From contig NZ_JAPFBJ010000002.1 in the NCBI RefSeq assembly GCF_030867385.1, positions 349,001-413,000 of the forward strand: 64,000 nucleotides of DNA, given 5' to 3'. Below are positions 24,587 through 44,289 of the stretch, piece after piece. Origin of the DNA: Sphingobium sp. DEHP117. Its GTDB lineage: Bacteria > Pseudomonadota > Alphaproteobacteria > Sphingomonadales > Sphingomonadaceae. Both the position numbers and the translations under genes were made by a program. The notes beneath the pieces were generated by a model, which had not been told where the DNA came from, ran no database searches, and worked only from the letters and a program-made list of their open reading frames with translations. Each line of letters opens with the position of its first letter. Position 1 is the stretch's first letter.

Positions 24587-25663
24587 TTACATGCCCGAAC
24601 CCGGACCGTAGGTGATTTCCACACGACGGTTCTGCAGCTCGCGAACACCGTCAGCGGTCTCAACCTTGGGCTGGCCTTCACCAAATGCCTTGGTGGAGAT
24701 GGCGCCATCCGAGATGCCCTTGGAGACGATGTACGCCTTCACTGCATCCGCGCGGCGCTGAGACAGCGCGACGTTGTAGGCCGGGCGACCCGCCTTGTCG
24801 GCGTGACCAGCAAGCATGACCTGCGCGCTGTTGCAGTTGGCATAGGCCGAAACCGCGCTGTCGAGGATCGTTGCCGCATCTGGCGTGATGTCCGACTTAT
24901 CGAATTCAAAGAACACGATATACGGTCCAGGCTGGCACTCAACCACCGGCGGAGGCGGCGGGGGAGGCGGCGGGGGCGGAGGAGGTGGCGGCGGCGGGGG
25001 CGGAGGAGGCGGAGGAGCCTTCTCGCCGAAGTTGTACACCAGGCCAACCAACAGGCTGTGCGTGCGCACATCCGCGTCAACCGCAGTGCCGGGCGCGCCC
25101 GCACCGCCAAAGGCGTTGCTGGTGACGATATCGACGTTACGGTGGTTGAAGTAGCGATACTTCAGTTCCGCATCGAGCTTGTCGCTCAGCGGCATACGGA
25201 CACCTGCCAGAGCCTGCCAGGCGAAACCGGTGTCGGAGTCATCCGTCGTCAGCGTGTAGAGATGCGTGCGCGCAATACCCGCGCCGCCGCCGACAAAACC
25301 CTGCAGACCATCATCCGGACCGAAGTCGAGCAGGCCGTTCAGCATGAAGCTGAGCGAACGCACGTTGCCGCGGGTGCTCTGAACGCCGACATAATCAACA
25401 TGGTCGGTCCATGCGCGGCGGAAACCCACCTCCGATTCAAGACGGAACATGCCGAAGTCATAACCGATCACGCCGTCAACGTCGAAACCGGTGTTATAAT
25501 CCGCTGTCGCATCTGCGGCGGTCGAACCTGCCACATCAATATCGATGTCTTCGACAAGCATTGCGCCGCCATGAGCGCCGATATACCAGGCATCATCACG
25601 CGCGAGAGCAGGACTTGCCATCGCCGTGGTCGCAAGAGCTGCCGCAAGAGCAAGCTTCCGCAT
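24587..25663 (-). CDS. OmpA-type outer-membrane protein with 23-proline linker
   Basis: The 358-residue product has a signal peptide (ends SPALA), an eight-strand OmpA-like barrel (about 22-215, from DDAWYIGAHGG to LLVGLVYNFGEKA), an uninterrupted run of 23 prolines (codons 24947-25015), and a C-terminal OmpA peptidoglycan-binding domain (IVFFEFDKSDITPDA, AGHADKAGRPAYN, LQNRRVEITYG). It links the outer membrane to the cell wall. The prolines use mixed CCG, CCT, CCC and CCA codons. ATG 25663 is chosen for its AAGGGG site; a start 10 codons earlier is less likely. Confidence 0.93.
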   Translation of the reverse strand: MRKLALAAALATTAMASPALARDDAWYIGAHGGAMLVEDIDIDVAGSTAADATADYNTGFDVDGVIGYDFGMFRLESEVGFRRAWTDHVDYVGVQSTRGNVRSLSFMLNGLLDFGPDDGLQGFVGGGAGIARTHLYTLTTDDSDTGFAWQALAGVRMPLSDKLDAELKYRYFNHRNVDIVTSNAFGGAGAPGTAVDADVRTHSLLVGLVYNFGEKAPPPPPPPPPPPPPPPPPPPPPPPVVECQPGPYIVFFEFDKSDITPDAATILDSAVSAYANCNSAQVMLAGHADKAGRPAYNVALSQRRADAVKAYIVSKGISDGAISTKAFGEGQPKVETADGVRELQNRRVEITYGPGSGM

Positions 25664-25816
25664 GTCTATTCCCCTTTCCAAACTTGGTCGCATGGACTGT
25701 GGAAACTCCCTACCCCCTGGAAAGTTTCATGGCAAGACCAGTTTAATTCGGAAAAATAGTTCGCTTTGACGCTAATTATCACACTTTTCTGTGAGTCGGG
25801 CAGTAATTTCATAAAA

Positions 25817-26314
25817 TCAGGCGATTAGCCCATGCGCGCGCAACGCGCTCAGCACCTGGCCAAGCACCGCGCGCGCCTGCGTATCGACAACGCTGCCGCC
25901 TGTCGGGTCGGCAATCGCGCCCTGCCGTGCGGCCACCACCCGGTTGACTCCGATATACAGTCCGTCGGGTCGCACCGGGTCCGCCAGCCATGAAGTGCCG
26001 TCGTGGGTGTAGCGGCGGCCGTCCGCCGCGCAGAGGACGTTCAGCCCCGCGCGCGGAGCGACAAAGCGCCAACCCCCGGCCGTCAGGCACGCCAGCTGGC
26101 CGTCATGCCCCGCCCAGGCGCCGGTTGCGCCCGCCGCTACGACCCAGCACTGCGCCGGGGCAGCACCGCCCGGCGGTGTGGTGAGCGTGATGCTCTGTAC
26201 CTGCGCATGCAAGAGCATATCGATGAGGGCCAGCGCCTCGTTATGCGTCAGCTCCTTCTGCGCTTGCCCCGGCTGCAGCAGCGGCAGGGCAAAGCGGTCA
26301 CTGTTTGTCGTCAT
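25817..26314 (-). CDS. DUF2793 protein at the end of the GTA-like cluster
   Basis: This 165-residue protein begins MTTNSDRFALPLLQPGQAQK, the hallmark DUF2793 start, and contains GLNVLCAADGRRYTHDGTSW. DUF2793 proteins occur next to GTA and prophage tail genes and are thought to be tail-tip or fibre components; the exact role is unproven. It is the last gene of the cluster, 22 bases after the hub protein, and uses the same strand and codon style. Confidence 0.85.
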   Translation of the reverse strand: MTTNSDRFALPLLQPGQAQKELTHNEALALIDMLLHAQVQSITLTTPPGGAAPAQCWVVAAGATGAWAGHDGQLACLTAGGWRFVAPRAGLNVLCAADGRRYTHDGTSWLADPVRPDGLYIGVNRVVAARQGAIADPTGGSVVDTQARAVLGQVLSALRAHGLIA

Positions 26315-26336
26315 GATGCGAACTCCGAAAGGCGAA

Positions 26337-28541
26337 TTATATGCTGAGAGCGATGCTGGCGGGGCGCCCCGCCCCGAAAGTGCCGATCTGGCGGACCTGC
26401 GCCGTCACCGGGCCGCTGATCCCGAGGCCATGATCGACCGCGATCATCGCGGCATCATAGGTCCATTGCGGGGATGAGGTCGTCACGCTGCGGTAGACGC
26501 CACCGGATTTGACGAGGTCGATGCGATACTGCTCCTGCTCCTCGCCGAGCGGCGCATCCGCACCATCAACCCATTGCCAGCCGATCCGGCTGCGGCGGAC
26601 CCAGCCGAGCTGCCACCCCCCGCCCACAGCCACCGCCGTCCCATGTACCGGCGAGAGCGGGAGCACGGCCTGCCCGGCCACCGCCACGCTCGCCTTTACC
26701 GGGGCCGTGTCGCCGATGCCGATCGCATCGACAAGCAGGGTCGACCCCATCACCGCATAAGCAGTCGGCACTGGCAGGAGACTCGCCTGATCCAGCAGCA
26801 GAATTGGCTCGCCCGCGCTGTGGCCCGCCATTGCCCATTCGGTGCCGCGTCGGCCGCGCAGCAGGCGGGACAAGCGCCAACTCGTCGGCCCGGTCTGGTT
26901 GGCGAGGCCAAACTGGATCACCTCGTTGCCCACCAGCGCCAGATTGGCACCGCGCAGCAATGCGGCATCGTCCGCATTTGCCAACTGCATGGCACTGTTG
27001 AGCAGCTGCACGTCGAGGGTCGAGCCAAGATCGAACAGCGCGGCACTCGCCGCTCCGCCCAGCGCGCCCGCAGTGGTGCCGATGATGGCGGGCAGCGCGG
27101 TGCCGCCGATCGAGATGAGCGCGGCGCTGGCCGCATCTTCCACGAACAGTTCGGCCGCACGCCATCCCGCCTGCGCCCCCGCTGCTGCCACCGCCACAAG
27201 CGGGGCGGTGAGCAGCGTGTCGTCGGGCATCGGCAGATCGGCGATAACAAGGCTCGTCGGGCCATGGAGCTGGTCGGCCTGCAATACCGGGGCGCCCCCG
27301 TCAGCGGGTGGTGCCGCAACACCTGCTCCGCCCACCTGCCTCAAACTGAGGCGCACGCCCATGCCTTCCCATTCGCTGCGCTCGATGCGCCAGCGCCCGT
27401 TTTCGCTGTCCACAGTGACGACCGCGCCCGGTTCAAGGCCGAGCGCCCGCCAGTCGCACCGCAGCTCGAGCGTGCGCCTGCCGGTCCACAGGCTATGCAG
27501 TCGCGCTTCGGCCAGTGCACGCGCCGAGACGGCATCGAGCGAGGCAGGCAGATCCAGCGCCTCTTCCCTGCGGCCCGGCCCGGCGCGCTCGGCCATCTGC
27601 ACACCGGCCTGATGGTCACGCCCCGGATCATAATGCCGCATGGACACGCGCAACGGCGCGTCCTCGGCCCGCCCGCGCATCAGCTTCGCGCCCTTTTCAC
27701 GCCGGCCATTGAAGCGCGCGCCGATCATATCGGCTGGGATGTTGGCCTCTATCGGCCCGGCCGGGATAATGCCGGTCCCCGCCGCGCCGGTCCGCAGAGC
27801 GAGCGAATACCCCTCAACGAGCGGCAACAGCGCATCGGCAATACCGGATCCACTCGCCGCATAGCCCATCACGAAAGGTCCCCCGCCACCATCCGGCGCG
27901 ATCAGCCCGTCACTCAGGTCGTTGGCGATGTCCGCCACCGGCACCGCGCCGTTCTCGGCGATAACCTCGAAAGTAAGCGAGGGGATCCGGTTGCCAAAGT
28001 CGGTCAGCACCAGATCCTGAAACACCACATAGGCCATGCCGCGATGGGCGCTGGCGTTCGCCAGACCTACGGCGCCCGCTATCTGATAGTCCGCCGCCTG
28101 ATCCTCGGAACCCGGGTATACGCGGAATGAGCTGATATAGGTCTTGAAATCACCGGCAGCCCCGCGCAACAGGTTGCCGTCGGCCCATATCCGGTCAATC
28201 CCCGCAATGCGCCGTGCGGAAATCGCCACGGCAAAGCTCGCGCTATAGGTGTAAGTGGTCGTCTTGGGCTTGCCCTTGCCGCCACCGCTGGTGTGGCGCT
28301 GCTCGATCAGGTCCGTCGCCCAGATGACCGTGCCCGCCACCCGCATGGAGCCGAAGATCTTTGGTATCTGATCGCCATAGCGCGACGTTTGTATGCGCAG
28401 GTCGTTGAGGCGCGGCCCCACCCGTCCCTTGGGCTTGAACAGCACATTCTGGTCGATCGCCTGCCCTATGGCCGCGCCGATCGTCGCGCCCAGCGGCCCG
28501 CCCAGCACCGAACCGACGACCGTAAGAACAACGGTTGCCAT
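26337..28541 (-). CDS. GTA-type tail hub/host-specificity protein (gp15-like), short form
   Basis: The product is 734 residues. It starts with a Gly/Ala-rich hydrophobic segment (MATVVLTVVGSVLGGPLGAT) followed by LNDLRIQTSRYGDQIPKIFG, as in phage tail proteins of the J/hub type (Phage-tail_3-like region about 180-400). RcGTA gp15 is about 1300 residues from memory and includes a TIM-barrel region. This one is some 570 residues shorter and starts directly with the tail domain. It would form the tail tip. The next gene upstream (NlpC/P60) ends 3 bases before its start. Confidence 0.85.
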   Translation of the reverse strand: MATVVLTVVGSVLGGPLGATIGAAIGQAIDQNVLFKPKGRVGPRLNDLRIQTSRYGDQIPKIFGSMRVAGTVIWATDLIEQRHTSGGGKGKPKTTTYTYSASFAVAISARRIAGIDRIWADGNLLRGAAGDFKTYISSFRVYPGSEDQAADYQIAGAVGLANASAHRGMAYVVFQDLVLTDFGNRIPSLTFEVIAENGAVPVADIANDLSDGLIAPDGGGGPFVMGYAASGSGIADALLPLVEGYSLALRTGAAGTGIIPAGPIEANIPADMIGARFNGRREKGAKLMRGRAEDAPLRVSMRHYDPGRDHQAGVQMAERAGPGRREEALDLPASLDAVSARALAEARLHSLWTGRRTLELRCDWRALGLEPGAVVTVDSENGRWRIERSEWEGMGVRLSLRQVGGAGVAAPPADGGAPVLQADQLHGPTSLVIADLPMPDDTLLTAPLVAVAAAGAQAGWRAAELFVEDAASAALISIGGTALPAIIGTTAGALGGAASAALFDLGSTLDVQLLNSAMQLANADDAALLRGANLALVGNEVIQFGLANQTGPTSWRLSRLLRGRRGTEWAMAGHSAGEPILLLDQASLLPVPTAYAVMGSTLLVDAIGIGDTAPVKASVAVAGQAVLPLSPVHGTAVAVGGGWQLGWVRRSRIGWQWVDGADAPLGEEQEQYRIDLVKSGGVYRSVTTSSPQWTYDAAMIAVDHGLGISGPVTAQVRQIGTFGAGRPASIALSI

Positions 28542-28544
28542 ATC

Positions 28545-28955
28545 TCAACGTCCCCATCGAAAATGCGCGATCACCGGCCAGGGCGAAGCACCCGGCATTT
28601 CCACGACCCGCGCCAGGCTGGCGTCCGCGTGAACATGGCCCGCGTCCGTGGCTATCATCAGATGAAACTGTGCCACCCCAGCATACGCCAGCACGAGGTC
28701 GCCGGGCTTGGAGTGCCGCACCGCGCGCAGCCCGGCCGCGCGCATAATCGTGGCGAACCGCTCGGCCGTGCCGCCCCGGATGCTATAGGCGGCGGGTACG
28801 ATGCGCCCATCCAGCCGCCGGTGCCCGGCGCGGCTCAGAGCCAGAACCGCCAGGCCGATACAGTCCACGCCGGTCTCGGCGCTGCGCCCATGCAGCCGGA
28901 ACGGCGCACCGATCAGCGCCCGCGCCGCCGCGACGATCCTCTCTGCCCGTTTCAT
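28545..28955 (-). CDS. GTA-type NlpC/P60 cell-wall peptidase (gp14-like)
   Basis: The 136-residue protein has the NlpC/P60 catalytic Cys32 in GVDCIGLAV and candidate His98 (QFHLMIAT) with His107/109 downstream. It would cut peptidoglycan during DNA delivery by the particle. Length, motif and position between gp13-like and gp15-like genes match the GTA peptidase. Confidence 0.9.
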   Translation of the reverse strand: MKRAERIVAAARALIGAPFRLHGRSAETGVDCIGLAVLALSRAGHRRLDGRIVPAAYSIRGGTAERFATIMRAAGLRAVRHSKPGDLVLAYAGVAQFHLMIATDAGHVHADASLARVVEMPGASPWPVIAHFRWGR

Positions 28956-28979
28956 GATCGAACCCCAATTTCGTTAACA

Positions 28980-29037
28980 AAATGATTTTGCCCAGAATGA
29001 GCCGACTTTCGCAGGCCATTATCGGCAAAATCAATTT
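28980..29037. repeat. Hairpin repeat A in the GTA-like cluster
   Basis: The arms TGATTTTGCCCAGAATG (from 28983) and its near reverse complement CATTATCGGCAAAATCA (ending 29033) form a long imperfect stem with a short loop. The right arm includes the stop codon of the DUF2163 gene. The flanks match repeat B (GAGCCGA and TTTCGCAGGCCAT), as if A were B with about 45 loop bases removed. Confidence 0.7.
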
Positions 29038-29858
29038 GCACCCGGATAGCGGGTGAGGAGATCCATTCCGGGCAGATAAGGCTCGCCCCGAAAGTTGACG
29101 GCGTTGCCGAAACGGGCGGAGCAGGTCGCCATCTGCTTGTCGCAACCTTCCGTTATGAGCGCGCGCGTGCCCACCGCCACCGGAAAGGCGGGAAGTTCGG
29201 ACAACGTCACACTGCCCCCATCATTGCCGACAATGCCCTGCGTCAGCCCGCAATTCTCACCTTCGATCCAGCGCAGCTGGCCAAAGACATAAGCGCCTAC
29301 CGAAAGCCCCCCGCCTGAAATGGTCGCCACTTCGGCGGTCATGCCACTGATGCTGACTTCGCGCCGGTGCCGGGCCAAATCGACCCAGCACGCACGGTCG
29401 CCCAATCTTGCGCGGCATCCGGGCGATGTTTCGGGCGCCACCGGCGCGGCCAGCACACCCGCAGGCCCGGTGAGCTCGGCGGAAAAGGCCTCGCCCTGCC
29501 GCTCCACCGCGCCCAGCGTACCGCGCATCAGCTCCAGCCACATGGCACCCGGCGCGGTCCATTCGGTCAGCGCCAGGCTCAGCTCCGCGGCATCCCATTT
29601 CCCGGCAGACAGGTCCGCCTCGCTGATCGCATCGCTGGATAGCGCACCCTTCAGCTCCATGCTCTCCGGGTCGAGCGCGATCCCCTTGTTGATGGCCGAA
29701 GGGATCATGCCCGGCGCGGCTGTATAGACCACACCGCCGATCGTCAGGTCGCGGTCATGGCTGGTGAGGCCGATCGTCACACCGTCGCGCCGCTCCAGCC
29801 GCCAGCAGAACGCAAAGGCGGCAAGCTCCTGCGCCAATATCGCGTCGAACGCGCTCAT
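29031..29858 (-). CDS. DUF2163 tail protein (GTA gp13-like)
   Basis: This 275-residue protein shows the DUF2163/BR0599 family pattern: TIGLTSHDRDLTIGGVVYTA near the N-terminus, a Cys-containing middle (SPGCRARLGDRACWVDLA), and ITEGCDKQMATCSARFGNAV near the end. In GTA particles this protein belongs to the tail hub. Its ATG overlaps the stop of the DUF2460 fusion by 4 bases (ATGA). Confidence 0.93.
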   Translation of the reverse strand: MSAFDAILAQELAAFAFCWRLERRDGVTIGLTSHDRDLTIGGVVYTAAPGMIPSAINKGIALDPESMELKGALSSDAISEADLSAGKWDAAELSLALTEWTAPGAMWLELMRGTLGAVERQGEAFSAELTGPAGVLAAPVAPETSPGCRARLGDRACWVDLARHRREVSISGMTAEVATISGGGLSVGAYVFGQLRWIEGENCGLTQGIVGNDGGSVTLSELPAFPVAVGTRALITEGCDKQMATCSARFGNAVNFRGEPYLPGMDLLTRYPGAN

Positions 29859-32173
29859 TCGCGGATCTCCACCAGCGGTACGGATGGCGCTTCACCCGCC
29901 GCGAAGGTCGCGCGGTTCACTTCCAGCGCATCCTCGGCAAACCGCACCGGCACATCGAAGCGGAACCCGGCGGTGAGGATCACGCCGCTCGCCGGGGCGA
30001 CATTGAACGAGATCATCCCGCCGCCCAGATGCTGCCATCCGGTTGTCAGCTCCACACCATTGGCGGCAATCCGGATCGTGCCCGCCACCGGCCGGGTGAT
30101 GCGCCGCTGCTGCGCCTCCGCCCCGCTGCCATAATATTTGGCAAGGGCGAACTGGCTGGTCGCGCCATCCCCGGTGCCGAGCTTCTGGTCGACCGGGCTG
30201 ACCGCCTGCCCCCACGGCGCGCTCTGATTGTCGAACGGGTCGGTAAAGCGAAACCCCCGCGCCGCGCCCCTGCGCGCCCGGAAAAAGTCGATCAGCGTCA
30301 CAAGATCGGCCTCGGAGCGCACGCCTGGCCCGGCATCGAACCGCAGCCGCGCGTCCGCCCAGTCGGATGAGCGCCGCTCATGGCCCGATATGCTCTCGAC
30401 CGTCTGGGTCGAAAACGCCGGGGTCACGCTCGCCTCCTTGCCGATGCTCAAGGGGAAGATCACATCGTCGAACGCCTGCATAGGCTCTCCTGCCAGACAG
30501 AAATAGGTGAAGCCGTCGCGCGCCACTTGGGGCAGCGCCCAGATGAACGTGCGCGCCACCCCGCGCGCCTCGCCGACACGCGCGGCTTTCTCGATCAGCG
30601 GCCATTGCGTTGCCGCATCCGCGCCCTGCAGCACGAACCCGGAGAGATAATGCTGCTCCGCCGCCGCATAGCCCAGCCGCGTGGTCGCGGCGGCCGCGCC
30701 AGCGGCAGAGAGCGCGCCATGCCCGCCCGTCACCCAGTCATAATCCTCGAGCTGCAAGACATCGAAGGCGGGCTTGGCCCAGCCAAGCGGCATGTTGGCG
30801 CGCTTCGCCTCGGGGGCTTGGCTGTCGAGCACCGTCGGCAGATAGGTGAGCAGATGCGTCTGGCATGCGGGCGCCGCCGCCTTCACGGCCGCAACCAGCG
30901 CTGCCGTCGAACTCGCCAGCAACGCCCCCGCCTGGTCAAGCAGCGCCGTCTGCGCACCGTTGAGCGACGCGCGGATATTCGGGATCGACACCGGATTGCC
31001 GCCAAAGGCCGCCTTCGCCGCTGCGTCATAGAGGCAGATGCGCCCGTCCGGCATCACCCACCACCACGGCTCACCCACCTGAAACTTCGGCGCAAGCCCC
31101 GCCGCTTGCCCAATCCCGATAAACGCCGCGCCGACCTGATGCAGATAGCCCATCGCCCCGCTCTGCGCAGGCGAAAGCAGTGTAGAAGGCGGAGACCAGC
31201 CGGTGAGCGCGGGCGATCCATCCTCCGCCCGCTGCTTCCAGTTGCCCCAGCAATGCTGATCGAGCAGCTCGTAAGACAGTGACCAGATAATGCCAAAGCC
31301 TTGTGTTTGCGCCCGCGCCGCAAAGTCCGCATGCCACGCGGCGCAGGGGCTGCACAGCACGCCGCCGTTCAAGCTCGCATAATAAGCGCCGCTATTGAGC
31401 TCGAGCCGGAAATAATGGCTCATGCCGACATAGTGCAGAATGTCACCGCGATATCCCAGCGCCCGGATTTGCCACAGCACGCGCTCGGGCGTCTGGTTAT
31501 AGGCGTCGTCATAGCCGGTAGCGATCGAAAGGCCATGTTCGGGCAGCATCGGGTCGCCGATCGACAGCACCGATCCGGAGCCGTCGCACGCGATGCCCGT
31601 CAGCTCGACCCAGCCTTCCTGCCCCAGCGGATATTGCGTGGTGCCGCCGTCATAGCCGGTCGGGACCAGCGAGATGAAGATGCGGTCGATGTCCCCCGCC
31701 CACACCGGGTCTGCCTCGGCAGGCAACAGGAAGCCACCGTTCAACGCATTGAAATCGATCGTGATATCGGCGTCGGTCGGCGAACCGCTCGCATAGTTCC
31801 ACAGCCGCACATACCAGCTGCGCGGCGCGCCGCCCGCGTCCCGCCCCTCGATCGTCAGCGTCGGGCCGTTGACGGCGTCCAGTTGCCTGATCCCGCTGCT
31901 GCGCCAATGAAAGCGCAGCTGACAATTGCGGAAGTCGCGGCGCGTCTCATAGGCGAGCAGCGGATGATCCCACTGGTCCTGCGCCTCCCAGATCAGCCCC
32001 GCCAGATCGCCCGACCCATAGAATACAGTGTCAACCCGCAAGGCATCGGGCGCAGTCGTCACCACGCTCGCCATCATCGGGCGCGGGAAGTTCACGGTCC
32101 AGAACGCGGGCGAGAAACGCTTGACGAACCCGCGCTCCTGCCCGCCGTCAGCGGACGCCAGCCAATATGCCAT
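29855..32173 (-). CDS. DUF2460 distal-tail protein fused to a large N-terminal domain (gp12-like)
   Basis: The product is 772 residues. The last ~205 residues are DUF2460 (TPAFSTQTVESISGHERRSS, FFRARRGAARGFRFTDPFDN), the GTA gp12 distal-tail domain. The first ~565 residues are an extra module with beta-rich start (TVNFPRPMMASVVTTAPDAL) and a possible TIM-barrel/glycoside-hydrolase-like part: YDDAYNQTPERVLWQIRALG, WSLSYELLDQHCWGNW, FQVGEPWWWVMPDG, with acidic residues in typical strand-end places. The hydrolase idea is inference. ATG 32173 begins MAYWLASADGGQERG; a start 12 codons earlier is possible. Confidence 0.85.
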   Translation of the reverse strand: MAYWLASADGGQERGFVKRFSPAFWTVNFPRPMMASVVTTAPDALRVDTVFYGSGDLAGLIWEAQDQWDHPLLAYETRRDFRNCQLRFHWRSSGIRQLDAVNGPTLTIEGRDAGGAPRSWYVRLWNYASGSPTDADITIDFNALNGGFLLPAEADPVWAGDIDRIFISLVPTGYDGGTTQYPLGQEGWVELTGIACDGSGSVLSIGDPMLPEHGLSIATGYDDAYNQTPERVLWQIRALGYRGDILHYVGMSHYFRLELNSGAYYASLNGGVLCSPCAAWHADFAARAQTQGFGIIWSLSYELLDQHCWGNWKQRAEDGSPALTGWSPPSTLLSPAQSGAMGYLHQVGAAFIGIGQAAGLAPKFQVGEPWWWVMPDGRICLYDAAAKAAFGGNPVSIPNIRASLNGAQTALLDQAGALLASSTAALVAAVKAAAPACQTHLLTYLPTVLDSQAPEAKRANMPLGWAKPAFDVLQLEDYDWVTGGHGALSAAGAAAATTRLGYAAAEQHYLSGFVLQGADAATQWPLIEKAARVGEARGVARTFIWALPQVARDGFTYFCLAGEPMQAFDDVIFPLSIGKEASVTPAFSTQTVESISGHERRSSDWADARLRFDAGPGVRSEADLVTLIDFFRARRGAARGFRFTDPFDNQSAPWGQAVSPVDQKLGTGDGATSQFALAKYYGSGAEAQQRRITRPVAGTIRIAANGVELTTGWQHLGGGMISFNVAPASGVILTAGFRFDVPVRFAEDALEVNRATFAAGEAPSVPLVEIRE

Positions 32174-32210
32174 GAAAGGAAATCCTCGGATTATCGGGCT
32201 CTCGCCCAAA

Positions 32211-32301
32211 GGAGATTTCGGTCAGGATGAGCCGAGAATGGCGGATTTCGAGAACTGGCGCACAGAAAGCCGTCTTTCGCAGGCCATCATGGGCGAAATC
32301 C
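32211..32301. repeat. Hairpin repeat B in the GTA-like cluster
   Basis: The left arm GAGATTTCGGTCAGGATGA (32212-32230) pairs with the right arm CATCATGGGCGAAATC (32285-32300) with few mismatches. The loop contains GAGCCGAGAATGGCGGATTT and CTTTCGCAGGCC, shared with repeats A and C. It fills the gap between the tape-measure-like and DUF2460 genes. Confidence 0.7.
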
Positions 32302-32870
32302 TATTCGGAGAGAGCACTACGGACATTCCTCGCAATCTGCCGGGAACTGCGCGCCAGCGCCTCCGGCGCGCCGCCCTGCGGCGCGTTGACGTTGATCGTC
32401 ACGCGCACGTCGCGCCCGCCCGCACCCGCGCCATTGGCAATGATACGCCCGCTGGAGGTAGGCACGAACAGCTCCGGCCCGTTTTCCCCAACGCGATAGG
32501 CGCGTCCCGGCGAAACCGGCCCGCCGGTCGCGCGCCCCGGCGCGCCGGCAAACACGGTGCCGATCGTGGATAGCACGCTGCCGATCAGGCCGCCGCCGCC
32601 GCCCGCCCCCGGTCCTCCCGCAGACATTGCGTTCGCCATGTCCTGCCCGATCTGGGTGAGCACCGCGAGCGCGATCCGCGCCAGATCCTCAAAGCCGAAC
32701 TTCCCGGTCCGGATCGCCCGCACGAGGCTGCCCTCGATCATGCGGCCCGCCTTCTCGGCGCTCTTGGCCAGCGGCCCCTCCATGCTGTCGCGCATCCCGG
32801 CGACATCGCGGGCAAAACCCTGCGTGTCGGCGCGCACCGCGATCACCAAGCGGTCGATTTCCTCATCCAT
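32301..32870 (-). CDS. Short tape-measure-like tail protein (GTA gp11-like)
   Basis: This 189-residue protein starts MDEEIDRLVIAVRADTQGFA, with a helical segment (residues 1-75) and a Gly-rich hydrophobic middle (AMSAGGPGAGGGGGLIGSVL). The C-terminus GENGPELFVPTSSGRIIANG is typical of tail tape-measure proteins. The small size matches GTA particles with short tails. The start overlaps the chaperone gene by 8 bases. Confidence 0.82.
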   Translation of the reverse strand: MDEEIDRLVIAVRADTQGFARDVAGMRDSMEGPLAKSAEKAGRMIEGSLVRAIRTGKFGFEDLARIALAVLTQIGQDMANAMSAGGPGAGGGGGLIGSVLSTIGTVFAGAPGRATGGPVSPGRAYRVGENGPELFVPTSSGRIIANGAGAGGRDVRVTINVNAPQGGAPEALARSSRQIARNVRSALSE

Positions 32871-33069
32871 CGGGAAACATCTCCTGCAATCGTGCCATGT
32901 CGGGCGCGGAGGGCGCATCCGGAACCGCCGCCCCCTCCAGCATCGCGCTGGCTACCGCTTCCATCTCGGCGGGCGTGGCGCTCCAGAACTGCTCTGCGCC
33001 CCAGCCCAGTTGCCAGCCCGCTACCCCCGCGAGCCTGAGCGCCACCGGGGCGAAGCGCTGCTCGCTCAT
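32863..33069 (-). CDS. Small tail assembly chaperone (GTA g10.1-like)
   Basis: The 68-residue protein (RFAPVALRLAGVAGWQLGWG, then QFWSATPAEMEAV) fits the small phage tail assembly chaperone family seen between GTA g10 and g11. It overlaps the genes on both sides (4 and 8 bases), so translation is coupled. Chaperones of this type hold the tape measure before tail polymerisation. Confidence 0.85.
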   Translation of the reverse strand: MSEQRFAPVALRLAGVAGWQLGWGAEQFWSATPAEMEAVASAMLEGAAVPDAPSAPDMARLQEMFPDG

Positions 33070-33386
33070 GCCCGGCCGGAGAGGATCTGGCCCAGCAGCA
33101 GCTTCAGCGCGGGCGTGGCCGCGGCAAGCCCCTGGGCCGCCACTGCTTCGCCCAGATCCTCGCGCGTCACTGCCTGCGGCCAGTCAAAGCGGCAATGCCA
33201 GAACAGGGCGACCAGCTCGCCAAGCTTCAGCCCGCCCGACGCCGCCCGCTCGACGAGTGCGAACAGCGGGCCAAGCTCCTCCTCGGCCGCCACCAGCGCG
33301 GAAAATGTCGGCCTGAGTATCAGCCGCTCACCGCGCACCAGCACGGATGCCTCGCCGCGCAGTGCATTTGCCGCGCGGGTCGTCAC
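33066..33386 (-). CDS. GTA-family tail assembly protein (gp10-like)
   Basis: This 106-residue protein starts at GTG and contains RGEASVLVRGERLILRPTFS and LGELVALFWHCRFDW, matching the gene-transfer-agent tail chaperone family. Its GTGA start overlaps the stop of the major tail protein gene. It probably works with the next small gene as a pair of tail chaperones. Confidence 0.85.
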   Translation of the reverse strand: MTTRAANALRGEASVLVRGERLILRPTFSALVAAEEELGPLFALVERAASGGLKLGELVALFWHCRFDWPQAVTREDLGEAVAAQGLAAATPALKLLLGQILSGRA

Positions 33387-33790
33387 AGGCTCACCACCAC
33401 GCCGGAGCTTTCGAGGCTGATCGTGTAGGTGCGCTCGCCATTATAATCGCCCGCATAGTCGAGGCGTGTGACGAGGAACTTGCCCTGCATGCGCTCTCCG
33501 CTCTCGAAGCTCAGCTCATAATCATCGATCACCCCTGCGAGCGCGCGGTTGCGGATGTTCACTTCTCCTGCCGAGCCGGTGAAGATACCGGCGGCCGAGA
33601 CGCTGACCGCGCGCACCCCCGCGCCGGACAGCAGCTCGCGCCAGCCGCCCGATCCCTTGTTGGTAATGTTCACCGCCTCACCGCTCACCGACAGCTGCGT
33701 CGTGCGCAGGCCCGCAATGGTGGTATAGGTCAGCGGCATATTGCCGTTTCCGATCTTCAGTAAAAACGCACTTCCTTTTTCGACGCTCAT
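33383..33790 (-). CDS. Major tail protein, TP901-1 type (GTA gp9-like)
   Basis: The 135-residue product begins MSVEKGSAFLLKIGNGNMPL and has the beta-rich tail-tube pattern (ITNKGSGGWRELLSGAGVRA, YELSFESGERMQGKFLVTRL). It would form the tail tube rings. It is the first gene after the opposite-strand insert at 33928-34233. Confidence 0.9.
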   Translation of the reverse strand: MSVEKGSAFLLKIGNGNMPLTYTTIAGLRTTQLSVSGEAVNITNKGSGGWRELLSGAGVRAVSVSAAGIFTGSAGEVNIRNRALAGVIDDYELSFESGERMQGKFLVTRLDYAGDYNGERTYTISLESSGVVVSL

Positions 33791-33820
33791 GGCGCACTGT
33801 TCCTTTCGTCAGTTGAGGTT

Positions 33821-33863
33821 CGGCACCGGTGCCGCGTTCGAAATTCGCGTGCGTGCGAATTTC
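33821..33863. repeat. Palindrome and hairpin between the major tail gene and the opposite-strand insert
   Basis: A 14-bp perfect palindrome CGGCACCGGTGCCG (33821-33834) is followed at once by 9-bp perfect arms GAAATTCGC (33840-33848) and GCGAATTTC (33855-33863). The site sits between two divergently read starts, so it could hold regulatory sites for both. It is not clearly the same family as repeats A-E. Confidence 0.6.
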
Positions 33864-33927
33864 ACTGAAAAAGGCCGCAAGGGCGTTAAGCTTTCATGCA
33901 GCCATTCTGGGGTATGGAGGGGTTGCT

Positions 33928-34233
33928 ATGATACTGGTTGCACTGATCTTCGCCGCAGCTACGCCTGCAGATGCCGTTCCCAAGGCACGGCAGGCCTATG
34001 CATCCTGCCTCAGCCAGTTCACCAACGACGCCGTGGACCGCAAGATGCCGAAGGAAGAGTTCGTCCCCGGCCTCAACGCCAAATGTGCTGACAAGGAAGC
34101 CAAATTTCGCGCCGCCCTCGTCGCCGCCAACCGGGCAGACGGCATGAGCGAAAAGGACTCCGCCGCCGACGCCGAGGACCAGGTGAAGGGCTATATCGAA
34201 CAGATGACGGACAACTTCGCCAGCGGCAATTGA
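33928..34233 (+). CDS. Small secreted protein of unknown function inserted in the GTA-like cluster
   Basis: This 101-residue protein starts at ATG 33928 behind a strong GGAGGGG site. It has a signal peptide (MILVALIFAAATPADA) and a mature helical part with two cysteines (Cys27, Cys53) and many charged residues. I do not recognise a named domain. It is the only plus-strand gene in the 16-kb cluster, with its own ribosome site and palindromes upstream, so it looks like an added cargo gene rather than a structural gene. A periplasmic location is inferred from the signal peptide. Confidence 0.7.
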   Translation: MILVALIFAAATPADAVPKARQAYASCLSQFTNDAVDRKMPKEEFVPGLNAKCADKEAKFRAALVAANRADGMSEKDSAADAEDQVKGYIEQMTDNFASGN

Positions 34234-34268
34234 GGACGGTCAGCTTTTCTCTGCCGAAGCAACAACGC

Positions 34269-34416
34269 AGATTTGCGTCAGGACGAGCCGAGAACGGCGG
34301 ATTTCGAGACCCTTGAAACGAGGCACGTGACTCGTTTCAACGCAGCGTACTTAAGGCACGTGAGCACCGGAAGCGCAGGAAGCGGGTGTTCGCAGGCCGT
34401 CATGGCACAAATCTCA
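34269..34416. repeat. Hairpin repeat C in the GTA-like cluster
   Basis: The left arm AGATTTGCGTCAGGACGAGCC and right arm GCCGTCATGGCACAAATCT (ending 34414) are near reverse complements. The loop holds a second hairpin TTGAAACGAG/CTCGTTTCAA (34313-34340) and a segment GTGAGCACCGGAAGCGCAG also found in repeat E. The right end overlaps the stop of the DUF3168 gene. Confidence 0.7.
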
Positions 34417-34809
34417 CGCCGCCAGCACCCTGACCCGATAATCCATCACCGCATTCCACCGCCCCGCGCCATTACGCAACAGGCGCGAGCGGGTCATCAC
34501 CAGGCTGCCCACGCGCCACGCGCCAACTGTGCCTGACAAACCCTGCACCGCCGCATCCACCAGCGGCATGATCGCGCCGATGCGGCTGTGGGTTTCGCGG
34601 TCGTCCTCGATCCCGATGCCGATGCGCAGCTCGCGCCCCGGTCTGTCCTTGGTCGCCCAGTCCGTGCCGATGCCCTCGCCCACGATCACCATCGGTGGAG
34701 TCGCCTTGTCCGGCGTGCCGTCATAGATGCGGTTGACCTGCGCACTGAGCGCGGCGTCAGCGCGCAACAGGGTGATCAGCGCCGCACGAATATCGACATC
34801 GGGGTTCAT
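34414..34809 (-). CDS. DUF3168 head-tail/tail terminator protein (GTA gp8-like)
   Basis: The 131-residue protein has the DUF3168 pattern: DIRAALITLLRADAALSAQV, RIYDGTPDKATPPMVIVGEG, and a final YRVRVLAA. It would act at the head-tail joint or tail end. Its start overlaps the stop of the preceding small gene by 4 bases (ATGA). Confidence 0.92.
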   Translation of the reverse strand: MNPDVDIRAALITLLRADAALSAQVNRIYDGTPDKATPPMVIVGEGIGTDWATKDRPGRELRIGIGIEDDRETHSRIGAIMPLVDAAVQGLSGTVGAWRVGSLVMTRSRLLRNGAGRWNAVMDYRVRVLAA

Positions 34810-35018
34810 AATGCCGTTCTCCCGATAATGCGCAGCGAAGCGTCCCTGATCCAGCGGTCGAGCAGCCGCCGCCCTTCGAGGACGACATCGTCCCCTTCCA
34901 CATGCGCGGAAATGCCCGGAAACGCGCCGGCCTCGTCCACGATGCCGCGCCGCCTCTGCACCGCACGCGCCTCGGCATGGCCGCGCGCCCTGTCGAGCAG
35001 AGCGTCGAGCGCGCTCAT
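34806..35018 (-). CDS. Small head-tail joining protein candidate (GTA g7 position)
   Basis: This 70-residue, highly charged protein begins MSALDALLDRARGHAEARAV and ends DRWIRDASLRIIGRTAL. It overlaps the g6-like gene and the DUF3168 gene by 4 bases each. By position it fills the GTA g7 slot (head closure), but it is shorter than the usual ~110 residues and I do not recognise a domain. The assignment is from gene order. Confidence 0.65.
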   Translation of the reverse strand: MSALDALLDRARGHAEARAVQRRRGIVDEAGAFPGISAHVEGDDVVLEGRRLLDRWIRDASLRIIGRTAL

Positions 35019-35557
35019 GCGATCCGCATCCTGCGCCACGGCCGCCACAGCGCGGTTACGATTGCGGGCGGCGGGTCGCTCTGTTCCCGCTCGGTGAAGA
35101 GATGCGCGGCGAGGCGCACGATGCCCTGCCGCAAGCCGTCCGGCAGGCTGGCCCAGTTGGCGGAGATGCCTGCCATCAGGTCCACCTCCAGCCGGGTTTC
35201 GGATCGGGACTGGCTGACGCGCACCCACCCGTCGCCATCGCCGCTGATGTCCACGGAATAAGCGCCCACCGCCAGCGCGCTCGCCGTGCCGTCCGCCGCG
35301 ATCGCCCGCGCCGCGCTGATCGCACTTACCGGGCAAACGCGCAGCCGCGTCCATTCGCTGCTGAGCGCCAGCCGTTCCACGCCGCTGCGCGCGAACATCG
35401 CCTGCGCGCAGAAGTCTTCCGCCATGCCGATGGCAGAGCGCATCAGCGCACCGATCGCCGCGTCGTCGGTCGCGGTTTCGATCCGCAACCAGGCCTTGGC
35501 CTCGGCAATACCCGCGTCGATAATTACTTGCGCCACCGCGCTCATTGTCACTGTCAT
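35015..35557 (-). CDS. Head-tail connector protein (GTA gp6-like)
   Basis: The 180-residue protein contains AEAKAWLRIETATDDAAIGA, LMRSAIGMAEDFCAQ and ASLPDGLRQGIVRLAAHLFT, matching phage gp6-like head-tail connectors that attach below the portal. ATG 35557 is used; ATG 35545 and 35581 are in frame. A terminator-like hairpin lies upstream, between it and the capsid gene. Confidence 0.88.
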   Translation of the reverse strand: MTVTMSAVAQVIIDAGIAEAKAWLRIETATDDAAIGALMRSAIGMAEDFCAQAMFARSGVERLALSSEWTRLRVCPVSAISAARAIAADGTASALAVGAYSVDISGDGDGWVRVSQSRSETRLEVDLMAGISANWASLPDGLRQGIVRLAAHLFTEREQSDPPPAIVTALWRPWRRMRIA

Positions 35558-35596
35558 GGCCTGCGCCCCCCACATGTCCACACGCTATCCCACAAC

Positions 35597-35630
35597 GAAA
35601 ACCCCTCCCACACGGGCATGCGGGAGGGGT
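35597..35630 (-). terminator. Terminator-like hairpin between capsid and connector genes
   Basis: On the minus strand, 9-bp perfect arms ACCCCTCCC (35601-35609, read in reverse) and GGGAGGGGT (35622-35630) are followed by TTTTCG. It fits a rho-independent terminator downstream of the capsid gene and could leave capsid mRNA in excess over downstream genes. Confidence 0.75.
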
Positions 35631-35667
35631 CAGTCAGGGAGATTGCCACGCACCATCCTGACGATAT

Positions 35668-35712
35668 GATTTGGCAAGTGGCAGCCTTCTCAAGCCGCCA
35701 TGGGCCAAATTC
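35668..35712. repeat. Hairpin repeat D in the GTA-like cluster
   Basis: The arms GATTTGGCAAGTGGCAGCCTT (35668-35688) and its imperfect complement ending 35712 form a compact stem-loop with almost no loop. It resembles repeats A-C in arm sequence (GATTTgGC, GCC). It lies just after the capsid stop codon. Confidence 0.65.
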
Positions 35713-35717
35713 GCGCT

Positions 35718-36860
35718 TCAGGAGACGCTGAACTTCATCAATTTAATAGCCTCGCTATTGACCACAGCGCCGCCCAGCCGCTTCACCGAATAGAAGTTCA
35801 CATAAGGCTTGTTGCTGTAGGGATCGCGCAGCACGCTGGTTTCGTTGCGCTCGGCGATCACATAGCCGTGGCGGAAGTTGCCGAACGCGATCGAGAGGCT
35901 GTTCGCCGCGATGTCCGGCATGTCCGCCGCTTCGATCACCGGATAGCCGAGCAGGGTGGCGGGCTGATCGGCGGCAAGCGCAGGTTGCCACATGAACGCG
36001 CCGTCCGATGTCTTGAACTTGCGGATCACGGCCAGCGTCGCCGCGTTCATCACCCAGGCCGCGCCCTGGCGGTAGGGGGCTTTCAGCGCATGAACGAGGT
36101 CGACCAGCTTGTCCTGCGGGTTGGTGGCGACAAAGCCGCCCGCCGCGCCTGCCGCGACATACTGGATCGTGCCGAACGCGCGGATGCTGTCCACCTCGTT
36201 GGTGGTGGTATAGGTCAAAAAGCCCTTGGGCTGGTTGGTGCCCGTGCCGTTGACGAACGCCGCCCCTTCCGCGCGGGCAAATTCCATCGCAATCTCGCCC
36301 GCAAGCCAGCTCTCGACATCGAACTGCGCATCGTCGAGCATCGCCTGGCTCGCCGACGGGTTGGCATAAAGGTCGCCCCATGGCGGCACGATCTCGCTGT
36401 AGGTCGGCGTGCCGGTCTCGGGCCGCGCGGCAGTTTCAGCCGCCCAGCCGGACGGCGTGCCGCCGGTCGTCACCAGCTTGCGGTAGCCTGCGGTGCCCAC
36501 CTTCACCACATTCGCGACCGAGCGGATCGGCGACGTTGCTTTCAGGAACGTCTCGATCATCGCGTCCAGCTCGCGCGGCACCGCATAGCCGCCGGACGCG
36601 GGCGTGGCGCCGGTGAAGCTCTTCAGCTCCAGCCCCGCCTCCATGCCATGGCGCAGATATTTGTCGACGAACGCCGCGCGGGCGGGGTCGATATCCGCGC
36701 CCTTCACCCCATCGAGCGCGGGGCGGATAATGGCGCTTCTCTGCGCGGCAGCCACCTGGCCTTTCAGCGCGGCGACATCTGCTTCAAGCGTCGAAATCTT
36801 GTCCGCCTGGGCGAGCGCATCAAAGCTCTCCTCCAGCGCATCGGCTTTCACTTCATACAT
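35718..36860 (-). CDS. HK97-type major capsid protein (GTA gp5-like)
   Basis: The 380-residue product starts MYEVKADALEESFDALAQAD behind AGGAGA. An N-terminal helical scaffold region (about 1-95) is probably removed by the prohead protease. The HK97 capsid fold follows, with GGYAVPRELDAMIETFLKA, EIVPPWGDLYANPSASQAML and FGNFRHGYVIAERNETSVL. It forms the particle head. A terminator-like hairpin and repeat D follow its stop. Confidence 0.95.
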   Translation of the reverse strand: MYEVKADALEESFDALAQADKISTLEADVAALKGQVAAAQRSAIIRPALDGVKGADIDPARAAFVDKYLRHGMEAGLELKSFTGATPASGGYAVPRELDAMIETFLKATSPIRSVANVVKVGTAGYRKLVTTGGTPSGWAAETAARPETGTPTYSEIVPPWGDLYANPSASQAMLDDAQFDVESWLAGEIAMEFARAEGAAFVNGTGTNQPKGFLTYTTTNEVDSIRAFGTIQYVAAGAAGGFVATNPQDKLVDLVHALKAPYRQGAAWVMNAATLAVIRKFKTSDGAFMWQPALAADQPATLLGYPVIEAADMPDIAANSLSIAFGNFRHGYVIAERNETSVLRDPYSNKPYVNFYSVKRLGGAVVNSEAIKLMKFSVS

Positions 36861-36893
36861 AGGCTTCTCCTGCTTTACCCGTTGACTCAAATG

Positions 36894-36998
36894 TCTCCGT
36901 TCGGTTCGAGCAGCATCGAGCGAAGCCGAGATGCGCCCGTCGAGAACCTTCTCGACCGCAATCTCGACAGGCTCGATCGCCGCTCGAAACGAACGGGA
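36894..36998. repeat. Hairpin repeat F upstream of the capsid gene
   Basis: A left arm of about 28 bases (36894-36921, core GTTCGGTTCGAGC) pairs imperfectly with the right arm 36971-36998 (core GCTCGAAACGAAC). A nested perfect hairpin GTCGAGAA/TTCTCGAC lies at 36940-36957. The core resembles widely scattered GTTCGTTTCGAGC-type repeats of sphingomonads (recollection). Confidence 0.7.
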
Positions 36999-37014
36999 TT
37001 TGCGAACTTCCTGT

Positions 37015-37428
37015 TTATTCCACCGCGTGCACCCGGGCGGCGGGCTGCATCGGAAAGGTGACGAGGCTCACCTCGATGAGGTCCAGATCCTTCAGCACAC
37101 GCGGGTGACGCCCATCCGCCTTCGCCACGCGATAGCCGAACGACAGCCCGTTCACCTGCCCCTGCTTCAGCAGCACCGCCGCTTCCGCAGGCGCGTCGGC
37201 GCGCACATGGCCGATCACGCGCAGCCCGCGTTCGTCCTCGGCCATGCTCTCGATGATGCCGATCGGCTTATCGGGCCGGTGCTGCCACAAGAGCGGCACA
37301 GCCTTGCTCCGCCCGCGCCACCACGCAATCGCCCGCGCAAAGGCGCCCTTGCGGATGATATCCCCGCCCCGGTCCTGCCGGTCGAACAGCGCGGCATAGC
37401 CCGCGAACCGCACGCCCTGCGCCGTCAC
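37015..37428 (-). CDS. HK97-type prohead protease (GTA gp4-like)
   Basis: From GTG 37428 the product is 137 residues. It has the caudovirus prohead protease motifs: FAGYAALFDRQDRGGDIIRK, the catalytic His in VPLLWQHRPDKPIGII, and the catalytic Ser in VNGLSFGYRV. It would trim the capsid scaffold. Its GTGA start overlaps the DUF6127 stop by 4 bases. It is on the short side for the family. Confidence 0.92.
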   Translation of the reverse strand: MTAQGVRFAGYAALFDRQDRGGDIIRKGAFARAIAWWRGRSKAVPLLWQHRPDKPIGIIESMAEDERGLRVIGHVRADAPAEAAVLLKQGQVNGLSFGYRVAKADGRHPRVLKDLDLIEVSLVTFPMQPAARVHAVE

Positions 37429-37736
37429 GGTCGCACCAGGGAAACAAGCCCGGTCTTCACCGCCATGCCCAGCAGCGTCACCGCAAGGCATGCGCGCACC
37501 ATCCAGCTGATCGCCGCGTTCTTCGCCGCCGATTTCGCATCCCGCCAGGCGGAGAGCAGCTGCCGCAGTTCGCGCAGGTCGTCCTCCGCCGCGCGGTCGC
37601 TGAGGCCCAGCCGGTCGAGCGCGCGGGCAGCGCCGATCTCGCTCGCCTCCTCCACCAGCGCGCGGATCGTCACCAGATCCCCGGCGCGCCCTTCGGCCTG
37701 CGCCACCAGCCCGGCGAGCATATCGCTGTCCCTCAT
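37425..37736 (-). CDS. DUF6127-type small membrane protein (GTA g3.5-like)
   Basis: This 103-residue protein has a helical charged N-terminus (TIRALVEEASEIGAARALDR, SDRAAEDDLRELRQLLSAWR) and one C-terminal membrane helix (WMVRACLAVTLLGMAV). By size and position it is the GTA g3.5 gene, of unknown role in head assembly. It overlaps its neighbours by 4 bases on both sides. Confidence 0.82.
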   Translation of the reverse strand: MRDSDMLAGLVAQAEGRAGDLVTIRALVEEASEIGAARALDRLGLSDRAAEDDLRELRQLLSAWRDAKSAAKNAAISWMVRACLAVTLLGMAVKTGLVSLVRP

Positions 37737-38884
37737 GTCACTTCTCCTTGCACGCTCATGCCCAGCATCGCCCGCTTTTCGTCTGCCGAGAGGAAGTCGG
37801 CGCCGCTCAGCCGCTCCCACATCGCGGTGCGCTCGTCCGCCAGCTCTGGCACCCGGTCGAGGTCCACCGCCAGCTCCAGCCCCGGCATGGCGGGGCGCAG
37901 GCCCTGCGCGATCCCGCCCAGAATCTTGGCCATCAACGGCAAGATCGTCTGCCGCCACAGCGCCTTGTTCGCCTCGCGATAATTGGCGTAGGTATTGTCG
38001 CCCGGCAGGCCGAGCAGCATCGGCGGCACCCCGAAGGCTAGCGCGATCTCTCGCGCGGCCGACGCCTTCAGCGCCACGAAATCCATCTCCGCGGGCGACA
38101 TCGAGAGCGACTGCCATTTGAGGCCGCCTTCGAGCAGCATCGGCCGCCCCGCGTTTAGCGCACCCTGAAACGCCGCCTCCATCTCGGCCTTCAGCCGCGC
38201 GAACTGCTCTGCCGAAAGGACGGCGCCGTCCCTGCCGCTGTCGTAGACGAGCGCACCGCTAGGGCGCGCCATGTTGTCGAGCAACGCCTTGTTCCAGGTC
38301 GTGGCGGCATTGTGGATCGCCACTGGCCCGCTCGCCGCGCCGATGCAGCCCAGCCCCATATGATCGTCGAGCGGGTTGATGGCTTTCAGATGGATCACCG
38401 CCGTGCGCCCGCGCCCGTCCTCCGCCCAGAGCCGCGAGACCCGGTCCTGCACCCGATATTGATAGGCGACCGGCCAGCCGTTGGTGTCGACATCGACGCT
38501 CACCCGCTCGGGCCGCAGCGCGAACAGCTCAACCGGTTCGCCCTCGCCGTCCGGCGAGATCTGCACGAAACCATTGCCATGCAACAGCAGGTGCAGCGCC
38601 AGCGTCTCGACCAGCCCCTGCCCCGCCGAAGCGTGGCGGACCAGCTCAAGCGCCCTGGCGTTGTTCGCCGCGCTCGCGCCGGATGCGATTAACGATGCGC
38701 CGCCCGCCGCCTCCGACACCAGCCGCACCGCGCGCTGCGCAATGGGGTTGGCCTGCACAGCCGCGCGCACCTGCGCCTCATAGCTTGAGGGCCACTCGCC
38801 CAGCGCCGGCCCGCCGATCGCATAGGCGCGCGACAACACCGGGCGCGACCCAACGGCCGCCCCCTTCCATCCGAACAATTTCAT
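37733..38884 (-). CDS. HK97-type portal protein (GTA gp3-like)
   Basis: The 383-residue protein starts MKLFGWKGAAVGSRPVLSRA at ATG 38884 behind CGGAGTG. Portal motifs include NPIAQRAVRLVSEAAGG, LALHLLLHGNGFVQI, and the C-terminal FGVPPMLLGLPGDNTYANYR with EANKALWRQTILPLM. It forms the DNA entry ring of the head. Repeat E lies directly upstream. Confidence 0.94.
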   Translation of the reverse strand: MKLFGWKGAAVGSRPVLSRAYAIGGPALGEWPSSYEAQVRAAVQANPIAQRAVRLVSEAAGGASLIASGASAANNARALELVRHASAGQGLVETLALHLLLHGNGFVQISPDGEGEPVELFALRPERVSVDVDTNGWPVAYQYRVQDRVSRLWAEDGRGRTAVIHLKAINPLDDHMGLGCIGAASGPVAIHNAATTWNKALLDNMARPSGALVYDSGRDGAVLSAEQFARLKAEMEAAFQGALNAGRPMLLEGGLKWQSLSMSPAEMDFVALKASAAREIALAFGVPPMLLGLPGDNTYANYREANKALWRQTILPLMAKILGGIAQGLRPAMPGLELAVDLDRVPELADERTAMWERLSGADFLSADEKRAMLGMSVQGEVT

Positions 38885-38925
38885 GAGTTCACTCCGTTGG
38901 AGCCGATAATCAGTGAGAGCGGCCT

Positions 38926-39048
38926 GGAATTGCTCTCCATTGAGTCGAAAATGGTGGAATGCGAGAACCGGCGCGCAGCGACCTTTAAGGGTCGTGAGCA
39001 CCGGAAGCGCAGCAGAACGCCATTTGCAGACCGATGGAGAGCAATTCC
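38926..39048. repeat. Hairpin repeat E between the LuxR-type and portal genes
   Basis: Perfect 15-bp arms GGAATTGCTCTCCAT (38926-38940) and ATGGAGAGCAATTCC (39034-39048) enclose about 93 bases. The loop contains CGCAGCGACCTTTAAGG and GTGAGCACCGGAAGCGCAG, which match repeat C closely. The right arm ends 2 bases before the LuxR-type stop codon. Confidence 0.8.
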
Positions 39049-39050
39049 TT

Positions 39051-39776: not shown

Positions 39777-39854
39777 AGTCAGTCATGCCCACGGCGGAGC
39801 TATAGCCCAAATTTTCTTCCGAAGATACATGTGTAAACCTAAACTATGCCCGTC

Positions 39855-41180: not shown

Positions 41181-41231
41181 GCATTCGTGTTCCTTGCTGG
41201 AAATGCCTTGCAGGCGTTTGAGGGGTCTGCG

Positions 41232-44237: not shown

Positions 44238-44249
44238 GAAATTATTTTC

Positions 44250-44276: not shown

Positions 44277-44289
44277 ACCACTGCGCCGT

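Follow-up and report, generated by a model that had tools for sequence, protein, structure and literature searches.

In this study we analysed a 64-kb stretch of DNA from Sphingobium sp. DEHP117 (hereafter the window), part of a 3.59-Mb genome, which encodes a predicted gene transfer agent (GTA) with an unusual tail tip. Particles of this class package host DNA and cannot transfer their own genome. An ordered head-tail cluster of the alphaproteobacterial type I kind, typified by the Rhodobacter capsulatus GTA (RcGTA), extends for about 15 kb along the minus strand from position 41252 down to 25817. Its genes run in the order terminase, portal, prohead protease, HK97-type capsid, connector, tail completion, tail tube, GTA-gp10 and short tape measure, followed by g12, g13, g14, g15 and a gene for a DUF2793 protein, all on the same strand (Table 1). 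Two of these genes are the subject of this report: g12, which encodes the distal tail protein (Dit) and carries an additional triosephosphate isomerase (TIM) barrel module, and g15, a megatron gene that lacks the barrel found in RcGTA. An earlier note on this DNA, which named no strand, had pointed out that the size gained by one protein resembles that lost by the other. The domains of g12 and the gap in g15 bear this out, and the sizes agree because g12 has one barrel module and g15 is without another.

Translation of g12 from its ATG gives 772 residues and from an upstream TTG 784; Pfam and NCBIfam positions are given here for the 784-residue form, and acidic residues are numbered on the 772-residue form. 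The Dit domain is confined to the last ~205 residues, as previously supposed, with DUF2460 (PF09343) matching residues 581-783 (E 2.2e-75) and TIGR02217, the model for Rcc01695-family distal tail proteins, scoring 206.5 bits at residues 579-783 against a cut-off of 136.65. The ~565 residues ahead of it are accounted for by two domains that each exceed a 27-bit cut-off over their full length, namely NCTSP_N (PF23844; residues 29-218, E 4.9e-98, 326.4 bits, model positions 1-191 of 191) and TIM-barrel_NCTSP (PF23845; residues 223-567, E 4e-168, 559.3 bits, model positions 1-348 of 348). The predicted structure of this region comprises a beta-sandwich plus a barrel. The suggestion that the distal tail protein bears a glycosidase-type barrel, which an unrelated beta-sandwich alone would have contradicted, is thus upheld by family match and predicted fold alike, and the two segments cited in its favour, WSLSYELLDQ and FQVGEPWWWVM, do occur in the protein, where barrel strands 3 and 4 end. 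Among solved structures the barrel matches phage N4 gp64 (E 6e-37), while short stretches match the N4 sheath protein gp65. The nearest named relative of g12 is in Sphingobium fluviale (92% identity in the barrel), and purifying selection acts on all g12 domains, the ratio of nonsynonymous to synonymous substitution rates (dN/dS) being 0.06-0.35 in six comparisons, one of them partial.

The 734-residue product of g15 was described in the earlier note as a hub protein without a barrel; its length and the missing barrel stand, but the gene encodes the megatron, and the hub protein is that of g13. Its residues 10-235 correspond to 23-248 of the RcGTA megatron, while 237-731 match positions 800-1298 of the megatron model NF048004. 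Since the N-terminal match ends at 248 and the C-terminal match starts at 800, ~550 residues are missing at a single junction, leaving a protein that is megatron-like at both ends but has no peripheral part and that scores 429.5 bits, in two stretches, against the curated whole-protein cut-off of 800. The missing part therefore corresponds to the peripheral domain of the RcGTA megatron, placed at residues 230-744 in the structural description of that particle (PMC7296036). No Pfam match to the barrel family of this domain, GTA_TIM (PF13547), was found in g12, in g15 or elsewhere in the genome.

The reciprocal presence and absence of the two barrels extends across the lineage. We examined 118 genomes of the order and 240 of the class, with G000, G005 and G012 in both samples; the order is taken to be Sphingomonadales, to which almost every named relative belongs. 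Within the order the N4-type barrel is present in 51 genomes, DUF2460 in 54 and the megatron C-domain in 56, and all 51 barrel-bearing genomes are among the 54 with DUF2460. The GTA_TIM barrel is found in none of the 118, so that no sampled relative retains it beside the fusion, an outcome that would have spoken against the exchange. Across the class, GTA_TIM occurs in 24 of 240 genomes, the N4-type barrel in three and both in none; as 37 have DUF2460, about a dozen have neither barrel. Megatron length follows the same division. Where the megatron frame is complete, the 154 loci that have the N4-type module (144 Dit-fused, nine hub-fused and one with a split gene) all have megatrons of 683-939 residues, and 15 of the 18 without it have 1167-1494, the other three having 729-790; L041 and L020, where no complete megatron was recognised, are outside these 18.

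In a set of 217 loci, 192 of 197 barrel-bearing reading frames also contain DUF2460, three contain the hub and two, both from loci with a split gene, contain neither; because loci were picked by similarity, this count describes relatives of the window and not all such barrels. The window is counted twice in the set (L001 and L004), several genomes are repeated and 160 loci were chosen by barrel similarity. From L058-L217 came 137 full-length fused proteins, 80 of them non-redundant, of which 65 were aligned together with the window protein. Eighty of these loci (L138-L217) are from a viral collection, on contigs of about 5-25 kb with barrels and tail-tip genes of the Sphingomonadales type; judging by the tail-tip genes, the only part viewed, they may represent GTA clusters that were catalogued as viral. 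The fused gene is also matched, at 58% identity, by a 5.4-kb record from faeces labelled 'Bacteriophage sp.' (MT840053).

The module also occurs in a third layout, at the N-terminus of the hub protein gp13, in three genome loci (L021-L023) and on nine viral contigs (L225-L233). At these loci Dit is a separate protein wherever the sequence includes its gene, and every complete megatron is short. L225 and L226 resemble each other, L233 and L022 share the same barrel, and L227, L230 and L233 are contigs of 35-41 kb, as expected for phages or prophages. Two genomes of the order, G013 and G026, carry the module twice, once fused to Dit and once, at another locus, to the hub. In a barrel tree of 48 hand-chosen rows, from which L226 and L229 were excluded, the hub-fused rows fall on one side of a branch (support 100/98), and likewise the Dit-fused rows (89/70, not starred). 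As each group is split off by one branch, each fusion may have happened once.

Four acidic residues of the barrel, D222, E302, E368 and E476, are unsubstituted in an alignment of 48 barrels that includes those of GTAs, hub-fused phages and the N4, Loki and phi92 types. The conservation of these four residues argues for a ligand in the pocket. Glycoside hydrolases (GH) of the clan GH-A type are TIM barrels whose catalytic acids form a pair, one on strand 4 and one on strand 7, and in GH42 and GH14 the acid/base lies at the end of strand 4 and a second catalytic glutamate at the end of strand 7. Here the strand-4 acid is present and invariant as E368, and E302 and E476 are on strands 3 and 6, but no acid is seen at the end of strand 7. 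For that reason catalysis may be absent, and we regard a putative enzymatic action of the Dit barrel as evenly balanced between yes and no.

Table 1. Features of the GTA cluster in the window, with the domains and conserved acid codons of g12.
Feature	Position	Strand	Basis or remark
Terminase	39855-41252	-	GTA cluster
Portal	37733-39157	-	GTA cluster
Prohead protease	37015-37491	-	GTA cluster
Capsid, HK97-type	35718-36890	-	GTA cluster
Connector	35015-35581	-	GTA cluster
Tail completion	34414-34809	-	GTA cluster
Tail tube	33383-33790	-	GTA cluster
g10 (GTA-gp10)	33066-33386	-	GTA cluster
g11, short tape-measure-like, 205 aa	32301-32918	-	weak family match
g12, fused gene for the distal tail protein, 772 aa	29855-32173	-	Pfam and NCBIfam
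NCTSP_N domain (PF23844), beta-sandwich	31556-32125	-	Pfam, predicted structure
TIM barrel, N4 non-contractile-tail-sheath type (PF23845)	30509-31543	-	Pfam, predicted structure
D222 codon, just after barrel strand 1	31508-31510	-	no substitution in 48 rows, one gapped
E302 codon, after barrel strand 3	31268-31270	-	invariant, 48 rows
E368 codon (GEPWWW), just after barrel strand 4	31070-31072	-	invariant, 48 rows
E476 codon (QLEDYD), end of barrel strand 6	30746-30748	-	invariant, 48 rows
DUF2460 distal-tail (Dit) domain (PF09343, TIGR02217)	29861-30469	-	Pfam, NCBIfam
g13, baseplate hub protein, 275 aa	29031-29858	-	TIGR02218
g14, NlpC/P60-like peptidase, 136 aa	28545-28955	-	weak family match
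g15, short megatron, 734 aa, without peripheral TIM-barrel region	26337-28541	-	NF048004, RcGTA match
Slot (around residue 236) of the peripheral domain in RcGTA-type megatrons	27807-27866	-	match boundaries
DUF2793 protein, 165 aa, following g15	25817-26314	-	Pfam

Beyond the two ends of the cluster, the nearest genes examined encode UbiB (42699-44327) and an OmpA-like protein (24587-25693). Neither g1 (small terminase) nor g7 (head completion) was identified within 25817-41252; replacement of g7 has already been proposed for some Sphingomonadales (PMC9765227). The g14 peptidase is below both of its cut-offs (15.7 against 23 bits for Pfam NlpC/P60, 17.1 against 81.9 for TIGR02219) and is therefore strongly diverged. 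The DUF2793 protein matches phage families, two of which are named tail fibre, and may be a fibre of this GTA.

We consider it very probable that these GTAs lack the GTA_TIM barrel and carry on their Dit ring, in its stead, a glycan-directed barrel of the N4-sheath type. According to this model, the Sphingomonadales tail tip would bear a peripheral glycosidase-fold barrel that differs from that of RcGTA in both kind and place. The megatron barrel, which has a GH113-like fold and is present in three copies in RcGTA, is absent, and the distal tail protein begins with a fused module of the N4-sheath kind (beta-sandwich plus TIM barrel). The RcGTA structure report describes a Dit ring of six subunits, three copies each of hub and megatron, and a Dit N-terminus that contacts both of the latter (PMC7296036). 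Placed on that N-terminus, the module would hang near the site of the missing peripheral domain, in six copies as opposed to three, so that six barrels at the junction of ring and baseplate could bind, and perhaps cut, the surface glycan of the recipient and thereby let the baseplate reach the outer membrane. Ring position and copy number are inferred here by homology to RcGTA, and glycan contact, any catalysis and the order of gain and loss are inferences as well.

The earlier note had gone further in proposing that a domain moved from the hub to the distal-tail ring, and this is not what the comparisons indicate. That the lost and gained parts are alike in size, that both are glycosidase-type TIM barrels and that the two never occur together in a sampled genome would all suit a transfer of the megatron barrel itself to the distal tail protein. 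Against such a transfer, profile-profile comparison of the N4-type and GTA_TIM barrels returns an insignificant probability of 0.6%, from shallow alignments (13 and 12 rows, effective sequence numbers 2.7 and 2.4) whose best stretch does pair two similar strand-end motifs. For GTA_TIM, 39 of 80 loci were first taken, one row having a stop, and 30 were finally aligned. As a control, the N4-type profile recovered phage N4 gp64 among phage proteins (hmmsearch, E 2.5e-96). The nearest folds differ too. In searches of the Protein Data Bank (PDB) the Dit barrel model was closest to N4 gp64, its nearest solved relative at 29-30% identity over about 300 residues, and then to beta-galactosidase, PgaB and beta-amylase folds, and the megatron barrel model to the R4C megatron and then to GH113 mannanases; the megatron was represented by the R4C structure (8gtc_M) because RcGTA 6tba_8A, with 439 residues in the library, appeared weakly. 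N4 gp64 is not among the 50 matches listed for the GTA_TIM model, nor are megatron chains among the 50 listed for the fused-protein model, neither absence excluding kinship by itself. The added module moreover brings a separate NCTSP_N domain. Movement of one and the same barrel is thus unsupported and, in our judgement, highly improbable; the data look like a replacement in which a barrel of another glycosidase fold sits elsewhere in the particle. Such a replacement need not have taken place within the GTA lineage, since the whole tail tip could have been acquired from a phage that already had an N4-type module and a short megatron. The short megatrons of hub-fused phages and prophages are in keeping with acquisition of this kind, as is the failure of short and long megatrons to form two clean halves in a FastTree analysis of megatron C-domains, but the cluster resembles that of RcGTA in its gene order and its remaining genes (the comparison of tail-tip genes being unrooted), and we regard wholesale acquisition as possible but somewhat doubtful.

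A further question is what the module does. It could be a non-enzymatic binding or structural part of a sheath that stiffens or caps the tail end, much as the N4 sheath encloses its tail tube, and recognises a receptor; in phage N4, gp64:gp65 is described as a six-fold sheath and gp65 as the receptor-binding protein for NfrA (PMC12633501, preprint). The acidless strand 7 of the predicted model agrees with such a role. The four acids and many other barrel residues are nevertheless unsubstituted in 48 rows drawn from several architectures, seemingly more than a scaffold would need, and a review (PMC5380687) tabulates one family member, phi92 gp142, as a glycosidase. We therefore treat a purely structural or binding role as a real possibility that falls short of the probable. 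Very unlikely, by comparison, is a decaying prophage in which drift has preserved a fusion that arose by accident. Broken modules do occur in the order (a stop in G010, split frames in G035 and G072, an internal gap in G047), or the gene is absent, but dN/dS is well under 1 in every domain, six family groups in the sample of the order have barrel and DUF2460 in a single open frame, and the examined genes of the window cluster all have open frames.

Several considerations weigh against the preferred reading, that of a glycan-directed N4-type barrel in place of the megatron barrel. The absence of an acid from strand 7 is one, and another is that with profiles this shallow, and with similar strand-end motifs in their best stretch, a remote kinship of the two barrels could have escaped notice. 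The association of module with megatron length (Fisher test, 6e-19) describes our table only and is overstated, because the loci are not independent, the 18 module-less loci were hand-picked and few events are involved; the reciprocal pattern rests on a small number of independent events, about two fusions. Three genomes of the order with DUF2460 but no module (G021, G039 and G065; free Dit frames of 204-232 codons) have long megatron frames (1184, 1080 and 1169) without GTA_TIM, so that the megatron slot can hold other things. In G065 (L018) and G021 (L019) it holds about 460-480 residues with no Pfam match; an insert of this size without GTA_TIM is also seen at L037, and all three loci have enlarged hub proteins of 536-551 residues. 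Conversely, the megatrons of L038, L039 and L040 are short in the absence of the module. These loci look decayed, since their genomes have no DUF2460 and L040 has a deletion scar (7852-8616) in which the first 58 residues of NCTSP_N are joined to a truncated hub, with no Dit left; in the order, a megatron C-domain without DUF2460 was found in four genomes (G006, G008, G050 and G097). Loss of the peripheral domain may also have had a cause other than replacement, because this domain is reported to help dock the TspA tailspike in RcGTA and the same preprint reports non-Rhodobacterales as being without TspA (PMC13420450). Finally, the ring position and six copies would follow from homology with RcGTA, the present analysis covering genes and predicted structures.

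The domains themselves were already defined in Pfam, NCBIfam and PHROGs; to these we add the identity of the extra part of g12, the reciprocal absence, the hub-fused layout and evidence that the two barrels are apparently not homologous. The methods of Kogay et al. (2020; PMC7360931) mention a length difference in g12 and g15 that sets Sphingomonadales apart from other orders and for which the fusion and the barrel loss account. Within the literature searched, as far as its text was accessible, we found no description of the fusion or of a barrel swap and no explanation of these lengths. A 2026 preprint describes the exact function of the peripheral TIM barrel of the RcGTA megatron as unknown (PMC13420450). 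In this context the Sphingomonadales amount to a natural replacement experiment, with another glycosidase-fold barrel near the same junction; because a sister lineage has a substitute, we would predict that a barrel is needed at the tail tip and suggest glycan handling as its job. This raises the tentative idea, which we do not yet favour over its negation, of one barrel per tip: three sites (megatron, Dit ring and hub) would accept glycan-processing barrels of different glycosidase folds, normally one at a time, and a six-copy N4-sheath barrel would have replaced a three-copy GH113-like one. If true, the swap altered, for a whole order, the range of glycans and the geometry with which recipients are recognised.

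Comparison with known systems sets the window between RcGTA and a family of phage tails. In RcGTA (Rcc01695, Rcc01698; PDB 6tba) the Dit, hub, peptidase and megatron genes are in the same order, Rcc01695 matches the DUF2460 domain of g12 (E 1.1e-43) and 6tba_8A matches the N-terminal part of g15, but its 210-residue Dit has no N-terminal module and its 1304-residue megatron retains the peripheral domain. The hub-fused NCTSP proteins (phrog_6040; L021-L023 and L225-L233), phage Loki ORF17, D0 ORF45 and Lebethron CDS14 share with g12 an N-terminal module on a tail-tip protein encoded beside Dit. They differ in that the carrier is the gp13 hub or, in the Loki type, a C-terminal part that matches no family. 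NCTSP_N and TIM-barrel_NCTSP also occur together in phi92 gp142 and rV5-type tail proteins, which belong to large coliphages and not to GTAs; phi92 gp142 starts with a Calx-beta domain and lacks DUF2460. The fusion finally links GTAs to the sheath of phage N4, whose gp64:gp65 (PDB 9lc0, 9yf4 and 9yf5) has a related TIM barrel and N-terminal domain and carries the acids corresponding to E302, E368 and E476, both tails being six-fold if the GTA ring resembles that of RcGTA. The barrel of g12 lies in one chain fused to Dit, whereas that of N4 is split between gp65 (1382 residues) and gp64: gp65 residues of about 373-416 align with profile positions 4-45 and gp64 residues 112-410 with positions 61-353, and the heterodimer may thus share a single two-chain barrel.

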